Shown here piece after piece: positions 7,704-64,000 of a stretch of DNA of 64,000 nucleotides; the stretch's first letter is position 1, and each line of letters starts with the position of its first letter. A program made the translations under genes and the position numbers. Source of the stretch: Terriglobia bacterium (GTDB taxonomy: Bacteria; Acidobacteriota; Terriglobia; Terriglobales; Acidobacteriaceae); contig JAIQFZ010000001.1 in the NCBI GenBank assembly GCA_020073015.1, positions 57,763-121,762 of the forward strand. Direction: 5' to 3'. The notes beneath the pieces are model-generated. The model was not told the DNA's origin. It made no database searches and saw only the letters and a program-made list of their open reading frames with translations.

Positions 7704-7949
7704 CGGCGCTATTGTACGGCACAACTCACGTGGGGACGGCCGCCCTCGGCTGTCCAGCCGGGCGAAGCCCGGCAGCTTGCATCCGCCCCGAACCCGTCCG
7801 CCCCGAATATCTCCCCGTTTTCCTCTCCTTTCCACAAAAACCTTCGCCCCTCCACAGCTTCTTCACAAATACGCCGCACTTTCCCGTTGCGTGAATCGCC
7901 CCGTTCCCGCACAGTGCTAGTCAGTCAAAAGCGTGTGATGTTCTGACAC
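7704..7949. other. Non-coding spacer upstream of ruvA
   Basis: No supportable protein gene. It contains a GC-rich palindrome around 7745-7772 (CCAGCCGGGCGAAGCCCGGC) of the dispersed type. A stretch rich in TCCACA-like words at 7830-7880 does not amount to DnaA boxes. Confidence 0.5.
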
Positions 7950-8262
7950 CTTGTCGGTTTGGTTCAGCGTTGCTGGTGGTTCGCTCGAGGGTGAATCACC
8001 GGGGGAAATCCGGTTCATGTCCAGTGAACTGGAGCCCGGGCGTTGCGGCCTCCTCAGAAATCCTCCTTCCAAGGCAGGATGGAAGCGCTGAACCAGCAGC
8101 CTGTGTGCGCAAGCCTCAGGTGAGTATCGCGGTGCTTGTACTCTTAGGAGTGCAGGGGGCGCGATCATCGATCGCCTTCGGGCGGGAGACGACGAGCCAG
8201 AAGATCCACGAAAACAATGCGGCTCGGGTGGCTGGCCCAAGCCGCATTTGTTTTTGTTGTTG
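7950..8262 (+). ncRNA. Candidate structured non-coding RNA, class unknown
   Basis: A 10-bp stem, TGGTTCAGCG (7960-7969) with CGCTGAACCA (8086-8095), closes a multi-branch domain. Inside it are hairpins GGTGGTTC/GAATCACC and CCGGTTCA/TGAACTGG and a third around CCTTCCAAGG. Further hairpins follow (ACTC/GAGT near 8140; GCGAT/ATCGC at 8161-8175) and then a strong rho-independent terminator. No plus-strand gene follows, so it is not an ordinary leader. It does not show RNase P, tmRNA or SRP signatures. The 5' end is a guess; 6S RNA or a degenerate riboswitch remains possible. Confidence 0.5.
8216..8262 (+). terminator. Rho-independent terminator
   Basis: AATGCGGCT (8216-8224) pairs with AGCCGCATT (8240-8248), and TGTTTTTGTTGTTG follows. 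It ends the candidate RNA at 7950. Confidence 0.75.
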
Positions 8263-8457: not shown

Positions 8458-8739
8458 TTAGTTTGCCCCGCCCGCGATCGACGGCACCAGCAGCACTTCG
8501 TCGCCATCCTGAAACGCATACGAAGCGCCTCCGAGGAAGCGAATATCTTCTTCGTTCACGTAGATATTCAGGAAACGCCGCGCCTCTCCCGCTTCGTCGT
8601 GCAAGTGCGGTTTCAGGTCCGGGAACTGCTGGTCGAGCGCCGCGAACAGGTCGTTGAGATTCGACGCAGTGCAATCAATCGTAGGTGTGCCGGCGGTGAG
8701 CCGCCGGAACGGTGTAGGAATCTGTACCGTGATACTCAT
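8458..8739 (-). CDS. MoaD/ThiS-family sulfur carrier protein ending in GGAN
   Basis: 93-aa ubiquitin-like protein with the typical RFLNIYVNEED and GDEVLLVPSIAGG segments. Such proteins carry sulfide as a C-terminal glycine thiocarboxylate after adenylation. Here the Gly-Gly is followed by Ala-Asn before a clean TAA. By analogy with CysO-like, HcyS and QbsE carriers, a JAMM protease would have to trim the tail first; no such gene is in the window. It starts 6 nt after the thrC-like stop and shares that gene's SAM riboswitch. This points to cysteine or homocysteine synthesis rather than molybdopterin. Confidence 0.85.
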   Translation of the reverse strand: MSITVQIPTPFRRLTAGTPTIDCTASNLNDLFAALDQQFPDLKPHLHDEAGEARRFLNIYVNEEDIRFLGGASYAFQDGDEVLLVPSIAGGAN

Positions 8740-8745
8740 CGATGA

Positions 8746-10053
8746 TTATGCCTCCGCGGCGAACACAGTAGACTTGCTCGCCAAAGGTAGCGCCGGCGTC
8801 TCGCCGGCAAAGATTTCAGACTTGCTCAACTTGCGTGCGAGGTACGCCTCAAACTCCACTAGCTTCGGAGCGATCGGCGTCTCCGCCTGGTACGCATCCG
8901 CCAGCACGTCGGTGGTCTTCAGCCCGTTGCCCGTGATGCAGAGCACGGTTGTCTCATCGGGAAGGATTCGATCCTGATGAATCAGCTTGCGTGCCACGCC
9001 CAGCGTCACTCCGCCGGCAGTTTCGGTGAAGATGCCTTCGCTCTCGGCCAGCAGTTGGATCGACTCGACGACTTCGGTATCCGAAACGTCTTCCGACCAT
9101 CCGCCGCTCTTGGTGATTGCCTTAATCGCGTACGGCCCATCGGCGGGATTGCCGATCGCCAGCGAGCGCGCAATCGTCTTCGGGCGCTGCGGCTCGATCT
9201 CGGTGCTGTACTGCTTGACCGCCGTAGAAATCGGAGAGCAGCCCGAAGCCTGCGCGCCAAAGAACTTCACGGGCTTGGGATCGACCAGGCCCAGCAGCAC
9301 GAGTTCATCGAACGCCTTCTTGATCTTCGTGATCAGCGATCCACCGGCCATCGGCACGACGACGTTATCGGGCAACCGCCATCCTAGTTGCTCGGCGATT
9401 TCGTACCCGACCGTCTTCGAGCCTTCGGAGTAATACGGACGCAGATTCACGTTCACGAATCCCCAGCGATGCTCGTCGGCGATCTGCGAGCACAGCCGAT
9501 TCACGTGATCGTAGCTGCCGTTGATGCGCACCAGCTCCGCGCCAAACACTTGTGTGCCGAGAATTTTGGCGGGCTCGAGATCGGAAGGAATGAAGATCCA
9601 CGCCTTGAAGCCTTCGCGCGCCGCCTGTGCTGCGACCGAATTGGCGAGGTTGCCCGTCGAAGAGCAAGCGACGGTGTCGAATCCGAAGCTGCGAGCGTTC
9701 GCGAGCGCGACCGCCACCACGCGATCCTTAAAGCTCAGCGTGGGCAGGCAAACTGCGTCATTCTTAATGCAGAGGCGTCGCGAGCCAATCTTCTCACCCA
9801 GGCGCGGCGCGCTGACCAGCGGGGTATATCCAACCGGGAGGGAGGGCTGATACCCCGCAGGCAGCGGCAGCAGTTCGCGGTAGCGCCAGATGTTGGGCGC
9901 GCGCGACGCGAACAGCTCGTGCGAAACAGTTTTGCGGATGGAATCGTAGTCGTACGTAATTTCGAGGGGGGAGAAGCAGTCTTCGCAGTAATTGCGCGGC
10001 TGGCTGGCCCAGGTCTTACCGCATTCGCGACATCGGAGTTCGTACGTGCTCAT
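8746..10053 (-). CDS. thrC: Threonine synthase-like PLP enzyme with N-terminal zinc ribbon
   Basis: 435 aa. The N-terminus is a four-Cys zinc ribbon (CRECG and CEDC, residues 8-26). The fold-type II PLP domain follows, with the Schiff-base lysine in LPTLSFKDR (near residue 109), the substrate loop SSTGNLANS and a glycine-rich phosphate loop (MAGGS). The family converts O-phosphohomoserine to threonine. The gene sits behind a SAM-I riboswitch and terminator and is followed by a sulfur carrier, so a sulfhydrylase-type reaction on an activated homoserine is a serious alternative. The last 35 residues include the translation of a dispersed repeat (GETPALPLAS). Confidence 0.88.
   Translation of the reverse strand: MSTYELRCRECGKTWASQPRNYCEDCFSPLEITYDYDSIRKTVSHELFASRAPNIWRYRELLPLPAGYQPSLPVGYTPLVSAPRLGEKIGSRRLCIKNDAVCLPTLSFKDRVVAVALANARSFGFDTVACSSTGNLANSVAAQAAREGFKAWIFIPSDLEPAKILGTQVFGAELVRINGSYDHVNRLCSQIADEHRWGFVNVNLRPYYSEGSKTVGYEIAEQLGWRLPDNVVVPMAGGSLITKIKKAFDELVLLGLVDPKPVKFFGAQASGCSPISTAVKQYSTEIEPQRPKTIARSLAIGNPADGPYAIKAITKSGGWSEDVSDTEVVESIQLLAESEGIFTETAGGVTLGVARKLIHQDRILPDETTVLCITGNGLKTTDVLADAYQAETPIAPKLVEFEAYLARKLSKSEIFAGETPALPLASKSTVFAAEA
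8787..8812. repeat. Palindrome family C inside the thrC-like 3' end
   Basis: GTAGCGCCGGCG, tc, then TCGCCGGCAAAG, translated in frame. An almost identical copy in reverse orientation lies in the GH5 gene at 43212-43237, and related copies are at 50698 and 59845. Confidence 0.85.
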
Positions 10054-10110
10054 CCTGCAACTTCCTTCTGTGACTGCGGGACGAGCCGGGAATAAATCCC
10101 CAGATACGAC

Positions 10111-10139
10111 AAAACCCCTTTTCCGGATAGGAAAAGAGG
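10111..10139 (-). terminator. Intrinsic terminator of the SAM riboswitch
   Basis: CCTCTTTTCC pairs with GGAAAAGGGG (one G-U) over a TATCC loop, followed by TTTTG. It lies between the aptamer and the thrC-like start, where a transcriptional off-switch should be. Confidence 0.85.
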
Positions 10140-10171
10140 CTCGGGAGCTGCGAACAATTCGCGTCCCCGAA

Positions 10172-10283
10172 TCTCATGGTCCCCGTTGCCGGGCGAGAGT
10201 TGGCACCTGTCAAGCGGGATAGATGATCCCGATCCGGTTGCCGTGGCGTCCTAGGGCTCGTCCCTCAGCCACTCTGCATGAAA
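10172..10283 (-). promoter_or_regulatory. SAM-I (S-box) riboswitch aptamer
   Basis: Read on the minus strand, P1 is TTTCATG (10283-10277) with CATGAGA (10178-10172). Within it are the S-box consensus blocks: GAGGGACGAGCCC (10266-10254), CGGCAACC (10243-10236), the P3 hairpin CGGGAT/ATCCCG region, AGGTGCCAA (10208-10200) and a P4 hairpin CCCGGCAACGGG. With the terminator downstream, high SAM should stop transcription before the PLP enzyme and sulfur carrier. Confidence 0.9.
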
Positions 10284-10319
10284 TTCCGGTTTGCTCAAAA
10301 AGAGCAAACTTGGAGATAG

Positions 10320-10349
10320 ATAGTACAGGCGACCGGGGCGGGCTGTCAA
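10320..10349 (-). promoter_or_regulatory. Sigma-70 promoter of the riboswitch operon
   Basis: TTGACA (10349-10344), an 18-bp spacer, TACTAT (10325-10320). A perfect 8-bp hairpin (GTTTGCTC/GAGCAAAC, 10309-10289) lies at the predicted 5' end, before the aptamer. Confidence 0.75.
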
Positions 10350-63933: not shown

Positions 63934-64000
63934 TGGTCGGGACGGCGAGATTTGAACTCGCGACCCCTTGCACCCCAAGCAAGTGCGCTACCAGGCTGCG
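63934..64000 (-). tRNA. tRNA-Pro (GGG), 5' end beyond window
   Basis: On the minus strand the D arm, anticodon stem CTTGC/GCAAG with loop TTGGGGT (anticodon GGG, decoding CCC), T arm GCGAG TTCAAAT CTCGC, and the 3' acceptor strand ending in an encoded CCA (63936-63934) are visible. The 5' acceptor strand lies outside the window. Confidence 0.93.

Follow-up and report, generated by a model that had tools for sequence, protein, structure and literature searches.

A minus-strand locus in a 64,000-nucleotide (nt) stretch of DNA from a Terriglobia bacterium of the Acidobacteriota (contig JAIQFZ010000001.1; the whole stretch is hereafter called the window) encodes an enzyme of the threonine synthase family and a small sulfur carrier, behind a leader that matches the SAM-I class of S-adenosylmethionine (SAM) riboswitches. 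It is highly probable that these genes are a MetM/MetO-type pair, in which the enzyme would convert O-phosphohomoserine to homocysteine with sulfur from a thiocarboxylate at the C-terminus of the carrier. Very likely, the original prediction for this locus guessed the biochemistry correctly, and the kind of system is already in print. What the window adds is an acidobacterial member, a placement in a cross-phylum tree, an apparent exclusion of MetX, and a carrier whose two-residue tail is conserved. From the promoter to the end of the carrier gene, the locus comprises:

10320..10349 (-): sigma-70-like promoter, TTGACA-18-TACTAT, predicted by a consensus scan (10/12 positions)
10171..10284 (-): SAM-I (S-box) riboswitch aptamer, RF00162, 65.0 bits over the full model length
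10111..10141 (-): terminator-like hairpin followed by UUUU, the putative expression platform of the riboswitch, located by a script and absent from the tool's own terminator list
8746..10053 (-): metM-like gene for a threonine-synthase-family pyridoxal phosphate (PLP) enzyme (PF00291, TIGR00260; MetM clade; Tyr signature)
8458..8739 (-): metO-like gene for a ThiS-family sulfur carrier (PF02597) of 93 amino acids, C-terminus GGAN
8461..8466 (-): Ala-Asn codons after the GG, read from the sequence and predicted to be removed from the protein before thiocarboxylation (two-residue tail in 109/120 close homologues)

The metM-like open reading frame (ORF), 10053-8746 (-), encodes 435 amino acids of the PALP family, and the carrier gene follows downstream after a gap of 6 nt (8740-8745). 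The original prediction had described a threonine-synthase-fold PLP enzyme with a MoaD/ThiS-like carrier 6 nt downstream and a GGAN tail. Matches to the PALP and ThiS families and the reading of the 93-residue ORF bear this out, and the coordinates it gave were right to within one base. The host genome is 5.5 Mb in size and 99% complete. Among the matches listed, the named close relatives of both enzyme and carrier are mostly from metagenome-assembled genomes of Terriglobales. Where the relatives of the enzyme are named, they are called threonine synthase, so such genomes may look incapable of making methionine though they probably can.

In the MetM/MetO system of Streptomyces, thiocarboxylated MetO is reportedly the sulfur donor. 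The HcyS/HcyD/MetY route is said to use a carrier with one or more residues after the GG, removed by a JAMM-type protease, and the CysM/CysO/Mec system of Mycobacterium was reportedly described by Burns in 2005. Streptomyces MetM is a homocysteine synthase that acts on O-phosphohomoserine (Hasebe et al. 2024, Appl Environ Microbiol 90:e01247-24, as cited in PMC12172450), and PMC12172450 also names metO in S. albulus and places a SAM riboswitch upstream of metM. The protein-thiocarboxylate route on a ThrC-fold enzyme that was originally proposed for this locus matches the published MetM/MetO system as that is currently taken to work. PMC6225789 and PMC5764234 both refer to a protein-thiocarboxylate route to methionine in Wolinella. 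Limited literature searches, covering titles and the openings of abstracts, returned nothing on MetM/MetO in Acidobacteriota or on the carrier tail.

So, is the enzyme a MetM or a threonine synthase? Its best models are threonine synthases, with 266.6 bits against the NCBIfam thrC model TIGR00260 (cut-off 167.1), and the best cysteine-synthase model shown reaches 36.9 bits against a cut-off of 387. TIGR00260 also accepts, at 261 bits, a separate thrC on contig C116 that is 33% identical to the window enzyme and adjoins the homoserine kinase gene thrB (TIGR00191, 218 bits, cut-off 168), and the model therefore does not separate the two enzymes. Another ThrC-like enzyme, the third in the genome, is encoded on contig C119 (NF006050, 565 bits, cut-off 303). 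Judged by model scores and gene context, the window enzyme is neither the sole threonine-synthase-like enzyme of its genome nor the likeliest ThrC. The check for another threonine synthase that accompanied the original prediction thus turned up two further enzymes of this kind, one of them beside homoserine kinase.

By tree and signature residue, the window enzyme groups with MetM, apart from threonine synthases. When 60 Acidobacteriota genomes were searched with the window enzyme as query, the matches fell into two well-separated groups, the first in 18 genomes at 420-985 bits and 47-100% identity, and the remainder at no more than 248 bits and 38% identity. In the tree, a branch of support 100 separates all 98 MetM rows, drawn from many phyla, from the 24 ThrC-like rows; three loci (L043, L054, L064) in which no ORF fitted the motif used by the script were left out of the tree and the signature count. 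The position two before EGxK is Tyr in 95 of the 98 MetM rows (3 unread) and in the window enzyme, versus Arg in 20, Leu in 3 and unread in 1 of the 24 ThrC-like rows. The Arg of ThrC presumably has a role in substrate binding. The surrounding stretch, N-L-R-x-x-Y-x-E-G-x-K, is invariant in a 16-row MetM alignment. Separately, three loci (L056, L057, L059) form a third ThrC-like group in which Leu replaces the Arg/Tyr signature (NPYL).

The leader is a SAM-I riboswitch by model score, with SAM binding and switching predicted. A covariance search recovered the complete S-box aptamer that had been read from the sequence: RF00162 matches 10284-10171 (-) at 65.0 bits (gathering score 44.4; E 7.3e-13) over model positions 1-108 of 108, and this match, upstream of the metM-like gene, is the only one in the genome. 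The promoter claimed along with the aptamer holds up as a promoter-like site (10/12 positions; 2 such sites across the region on both strands, 0.4 expected), and the claimed terminator only in part. A hairpin at 10141-10115 followed by UUUU at 10114-10111 does lie between the aptamer and the start codon, but it is modest, is not listed by the tool's scan, and belongs to a region in which the terminator count of 2, against 2.2 expected, is not above chance. Among homologous leaders, a terminator-like hairpin occurs between aptamer and metM in 20 of 38, where mononucleotide shuffles predict 2.85; these are 38 of 50 leaders, with 12 omitted for an intervening gene, an unclear start or a cut contig. 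In a short piece of the leader, the 3' strand of P1 can form a helix with the terminator's 5' side. This helix lies outside the minimum-energy fold of the longer leader, and we dropped a claim of antitermination and claim the terminator alone.

Gene content suggests that MetM stands in for the activation of homoserine by MetX or MetA. Among the 60 Acidobacteriota genomes, MetX-like matches at E 1e-40, a threshold used because no control genome reaches the curated TIGR01392 cut-off, occur in none of the 18 with MetM versus 17 of the 42 without it (p 0.001). Four of the 17 are weak (149-174 bits), and the 13 strong matches alone give p 0.006. MetX was not found in the window genome, where the best match is a partial one of 25.8 bits (at E 0.001, 9 of 14 control genomes are positive), and neither was MetA (8 of 14 control genomes positive), the MetA search not extending to the relatives. 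One genome of the same family as the window genome (G007) has MetX and lacks MetM. This apparent exclusion of MetX, taken with a carrier gene behind the enzyme gene and a SAM riboswitch, offers an easy way to distinguish MetM from ThrC.

Both kinds of partner expected in the original prediction, a JAMM protease and E1-like enzymes, are encoded in the genome; together with the further threonine-synthase-like enzymes, this decides the prediction's refutation test, as far as gene content goes, in favour of the prediction. On contig C89 of the window genome (G000; L007, L013, L015, L017), a CysM-like gene is overlapped at its end by a JAMM gene, which lies ~1.6 kb before genes for CysO (ending GGC) and for MoeB with a rhodanese domain. 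The JAMM protein matches PF14464 and PF01398 and carries HSHP-x6-SQTD, which we take to be the JAMM motif. The CysO is 41% identical to the window carrier. There are two plausible E1-like enzymes in the genome, the MoeB-rhodanese protein and one of ThiF type, and two CysK-type enzymes above the TIGR01139 cut-off. With this C89 cluster, the genome that carries metM and metO also has a CysO-type route to cysteine.

Carrier genes accompany metM well beyond the Acidobacteriota. We compared 80 loci, the best 80 of at least 584 confirmed stretches in the genome collection when ranked by likeness to the enzyme of genome G018; they come from Planctomycetota, Nitrospirota, Omnitrophota, Verrucomicrobiota, Thermodesulfobacteriota, Pseudomonadota, Cyanobacteriota, Elusimicrobiota, Acidobacteriota and other phyla. 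A carrier gene is present in 74 of them, ending no more than 800 nt past metM in 70 of the 80, and 3 of the 6 carrier-free loci have less than 320 nt remaining after metM. Other genes in these loci are E1-like (30 loci), JAMM (14), thrC (12) and cysteine desulfurase (5). Among the 18 acidobacterial MetM loci, 9 have a carrier gene. Edaphobacter lichenicola (L170), a relative that can be cultured, shares the gene order of the window locus.

With a covariance model built from 22 aptamers, SAM-I was found upstream of metM on the same strand in 45 of the 80 loci; the search took in 94 loci (the 80, L036-L045 and L050-L053), and L046-L049 were covered by a separate search. The metM locus has a SAM-I in 9 of the 18 acidobacterial MetM genomes, and a tenth, G018, has one 2.3 kb upstream. 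In G018 a single SAM-I precedes genes for a ThiF-type E1, a cysteine desulfurase-family protein, metM and metO, an order that is the clearest single sign of sulfur flowing from cysteine through E1 and carrier to MetM. None of 14 ThrC-like loci has a SAM-I. By presence in the genome, SAM-I and MetM are only weakly linked (10/18 vs 13/42, p 0.09). In the MetM-free relatives G001 and G014, SAM-I lies 280 and 323 nt ahead of a metX-like gene, and in other MetM-free relatives it precedes a PF01053-type gene. One further genome (G048), with a SAM-I near the edge of its stretch, may have MetM that escaped the search.

The nearest solved sequence to the carrier is that of Mycobacterium 3dwg (3dwg_C, E 4e-17), entered as a 9.5 kDa culture filtrate antigen, which we take to be CysO. 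Among 120 close homologues of the carrier, two residues follow the GG in 109, one in 6, none in 1 and more in 4; Ala or Ser comes first after the GG in 90 of 119, and the second residue is variable. Farther off, among the 74 carriers of the 80-locus sample, 51 are extended and the other 23 stop at a bare GG, as does the carrier of Nonomuraea (L034, Actinomycetota). The window carrier would presumably need its tail trimmed, and relatives with a bare GG exist. A JAMM gene stands in the locus of 13 of the 51 extended carriers versus 1 of the 23 bare ones, a borderline difference (p 0.051). At the genome level the link between JAMM and MetM is strong, with PF14464 matches (E 1e-8) in 16 of the 18 MetM genomes versus 10 of the 42 others (p 5.7e-6), but the genomes are related and JAMM may be present for CysO. 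Both MetM genomes that lack JAMM, G018 and G025, have carriers with a bare GG; three genomes with such carriers (G009, G047, G058) nonetheless have JAMM, and all four genomes of the window's family with a carrier (G000, G034, G045, G056) have both the tail and a JAMM match. This distribution fits trimming of the tail, without proving it, and the genome offers a protease that could do it, but the data would also fit a JAMM protease that serves CysO alone. Fusions of a ThiS domain to a NIL domain were also seen near metM, at 5275-5790 in L093 and 5280-5795 in L107 (PF02597 and PF09383 in both), and carriers of the same length, 171 residues, occur near metM in L095, L098, L103 and L108. With ~80 residues after the GG, the fusions would need cleavage too.

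Put together, the proposed pathway would run as follows. At high SAM, transcription would end at the leader hairpin. A JAMM protease would clip Ala-Asn from the carrier and expose the GG; the one encoded next to the CysM-like gene is the probable candidate. Adenylation and sulfuration of the carrier would fall to the MoeB-rhodanese protein or to the E1 of ThiF type. MetM would then transfer this sulfur to O-phosphohomoserine in the form of its PLP intermediate, and the homocysteine formed would be converted to methionine and then to SAM. The conserved tail raises a testable question: by what means are carriers activated, and how do two amino-acid pathways share them? Tentatively, and with chances we would put a little under even, we suggest that MetO of Terriglobales is a pro-protein whose two-residue tail is fixed in length and nearly free in sequence (mostly GG-[A/S]-x), and that the JAMM protease and MoeB-type E1 encoded with the CysM-like enzyme and CysO mature and charge both carriers. 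Cysteine and homocysteine synthesis would then share a protease gate, and SAM would control the MetM/MetO branch only.

The locus resembles the Streptomyces system in its ThrC-like enzyme beside a carrier gene, its upstream SAM riboswitch and its expected substrate, O-phosphohomoserine, but the host belongs to the Acidobacteriota rather than the Actinomycetota and the carrier has two residues after the GG, where that of Nonomuraea has none. With HcyS/HcyD/MetY it would share a protein-thiocarboxylate route to methionine, and it likewise has a carrier with residues after the GG. Unlike in that system, the enzyme is ThrC-like (PF00291) and not MetY (PF01053), MetX was not found in the genome, and the expected acceptor is O-phosphohomoserine instead of O-acetylhomoserine. 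The CysO-like carrier, and E1 and JAMM partners of that kind in the genome, recall CysM/CysO/Mec, whereas the enzyme itself is no CysM, and a CysM-like/CysO set is encoded separately in the genome. With ThrC the enzyme has in common the PALP family, the SFKD lysine motif and presumably the substrate; it differs in its separate clade, its Tyr for Arg before xEGxK, its carrier partner and its control by SAM.

Several points weigh against the MetM/MetO assignment. The NCBIfam thrC model accepts the enzyme above its cut-off. In the tree, the MetM and ThrC tags of the rows were assigned in advance, by similarity, and the anchors are from Nonomuraea (Actinomycetota) and Nostoc, with no Streptomyces MetM sequence included. 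A search at the level of the locus, and not of the rest of the genomes, failed to recognise a carrier in 9 of the 18 acidobacterial MetM loci (L037, L046-L053). SAM-I was not found in 35 of the 80 MetM loci, nor in 8 of the 18 acidobacterial MetM genomes, where stricter filters lose weak matches, and the minimum-energy fold of the longer window leader lacks an antiterminator. The genome also encodes three full-length enzymes of PF01053 (cystathionine gamma-synthase/MetY superfamily), one of them above the cystathionine beta-lyase cut-off, so that another route to homocysteine may exist; they sit on other contigs and not beside the carrier. PMC12172450 describes a Microcystis relative, with 51.6% identity to the MetM of S. 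albulus, that produced threonine when given O-phosphohomoserine in vitro; inducing it left cellular methionine unraised. The same paper reports that this relative also gave an unidentified product eluting near methionine, and that its gene adjoins a metO-like gene and has no SAM riboswitch.

Were the window enzyme to behave like its cyanobacterial relative, as its TIGR00260 score would allow, it would be a second threonine synthase, with SAM setting how O-phosphohomoserine is divided between the threonine and methionine branches and the carrier serving something else. We regard this as very unlikely, given the separate thrC beside thrB in the genome and the thrC in 12 of the 80 metM loci, the missing Arg signature of ThrC, and the absence of MetX-like genes from MetM genomes; moreover, a SAM signal that blocked threonine synthesis would be expected to steer more, not less, O-phosphohomoserine to methionine. 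Alternatively, MetM might act on free sulfide as an O-phosphohomoserine sulfhydrylase, leaving the carrier as a helper or a leftover. Half of the acidobacterial MetM loci (9/18) indeed have no carrier in the locus, and in the cyanobacterial study the MetM reaction was mimicked with sodium sulfide (PMC12172450). Yet 74 of 80 loci do have a carrier, often accompanied by genes for E1, JAMM or cysteine desulfurase, which makes this reading very improbable. As to the product, homocysteine or cysteine had both been entertained in the original prediction. CysO is the nearest solved relative of the carrier, which would suit a pair that makes cysteine in the manner of CysM/CysO. Against this stand a ThrC-like and not CysM-like enzyme, control by SAM, and a genome with its own CysM-like enzyme, JAMM, CysO and MoeB as well as two CysK-type enzymes. 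Since this set is present and neither MetX nor MetA was found, homocysteine is far likelier, and we consider synthesis of cysteine by the pair extremely improbable.

Elsewhere in the window, the intergenic stretch 7940-8262 (+) folds strongly (z -6.86, with 0 of 100 shuffles as stable) and ends in a hairpin with a U-rich tail. It has no Rfam match up to E 1, and neither the other loci compared nor the plasmid collection contains a long stretch resembling it; possibly it represents an unannotated small RNA. At 63937-64000 (-) there is a tRNA that is cut by the end of the window.

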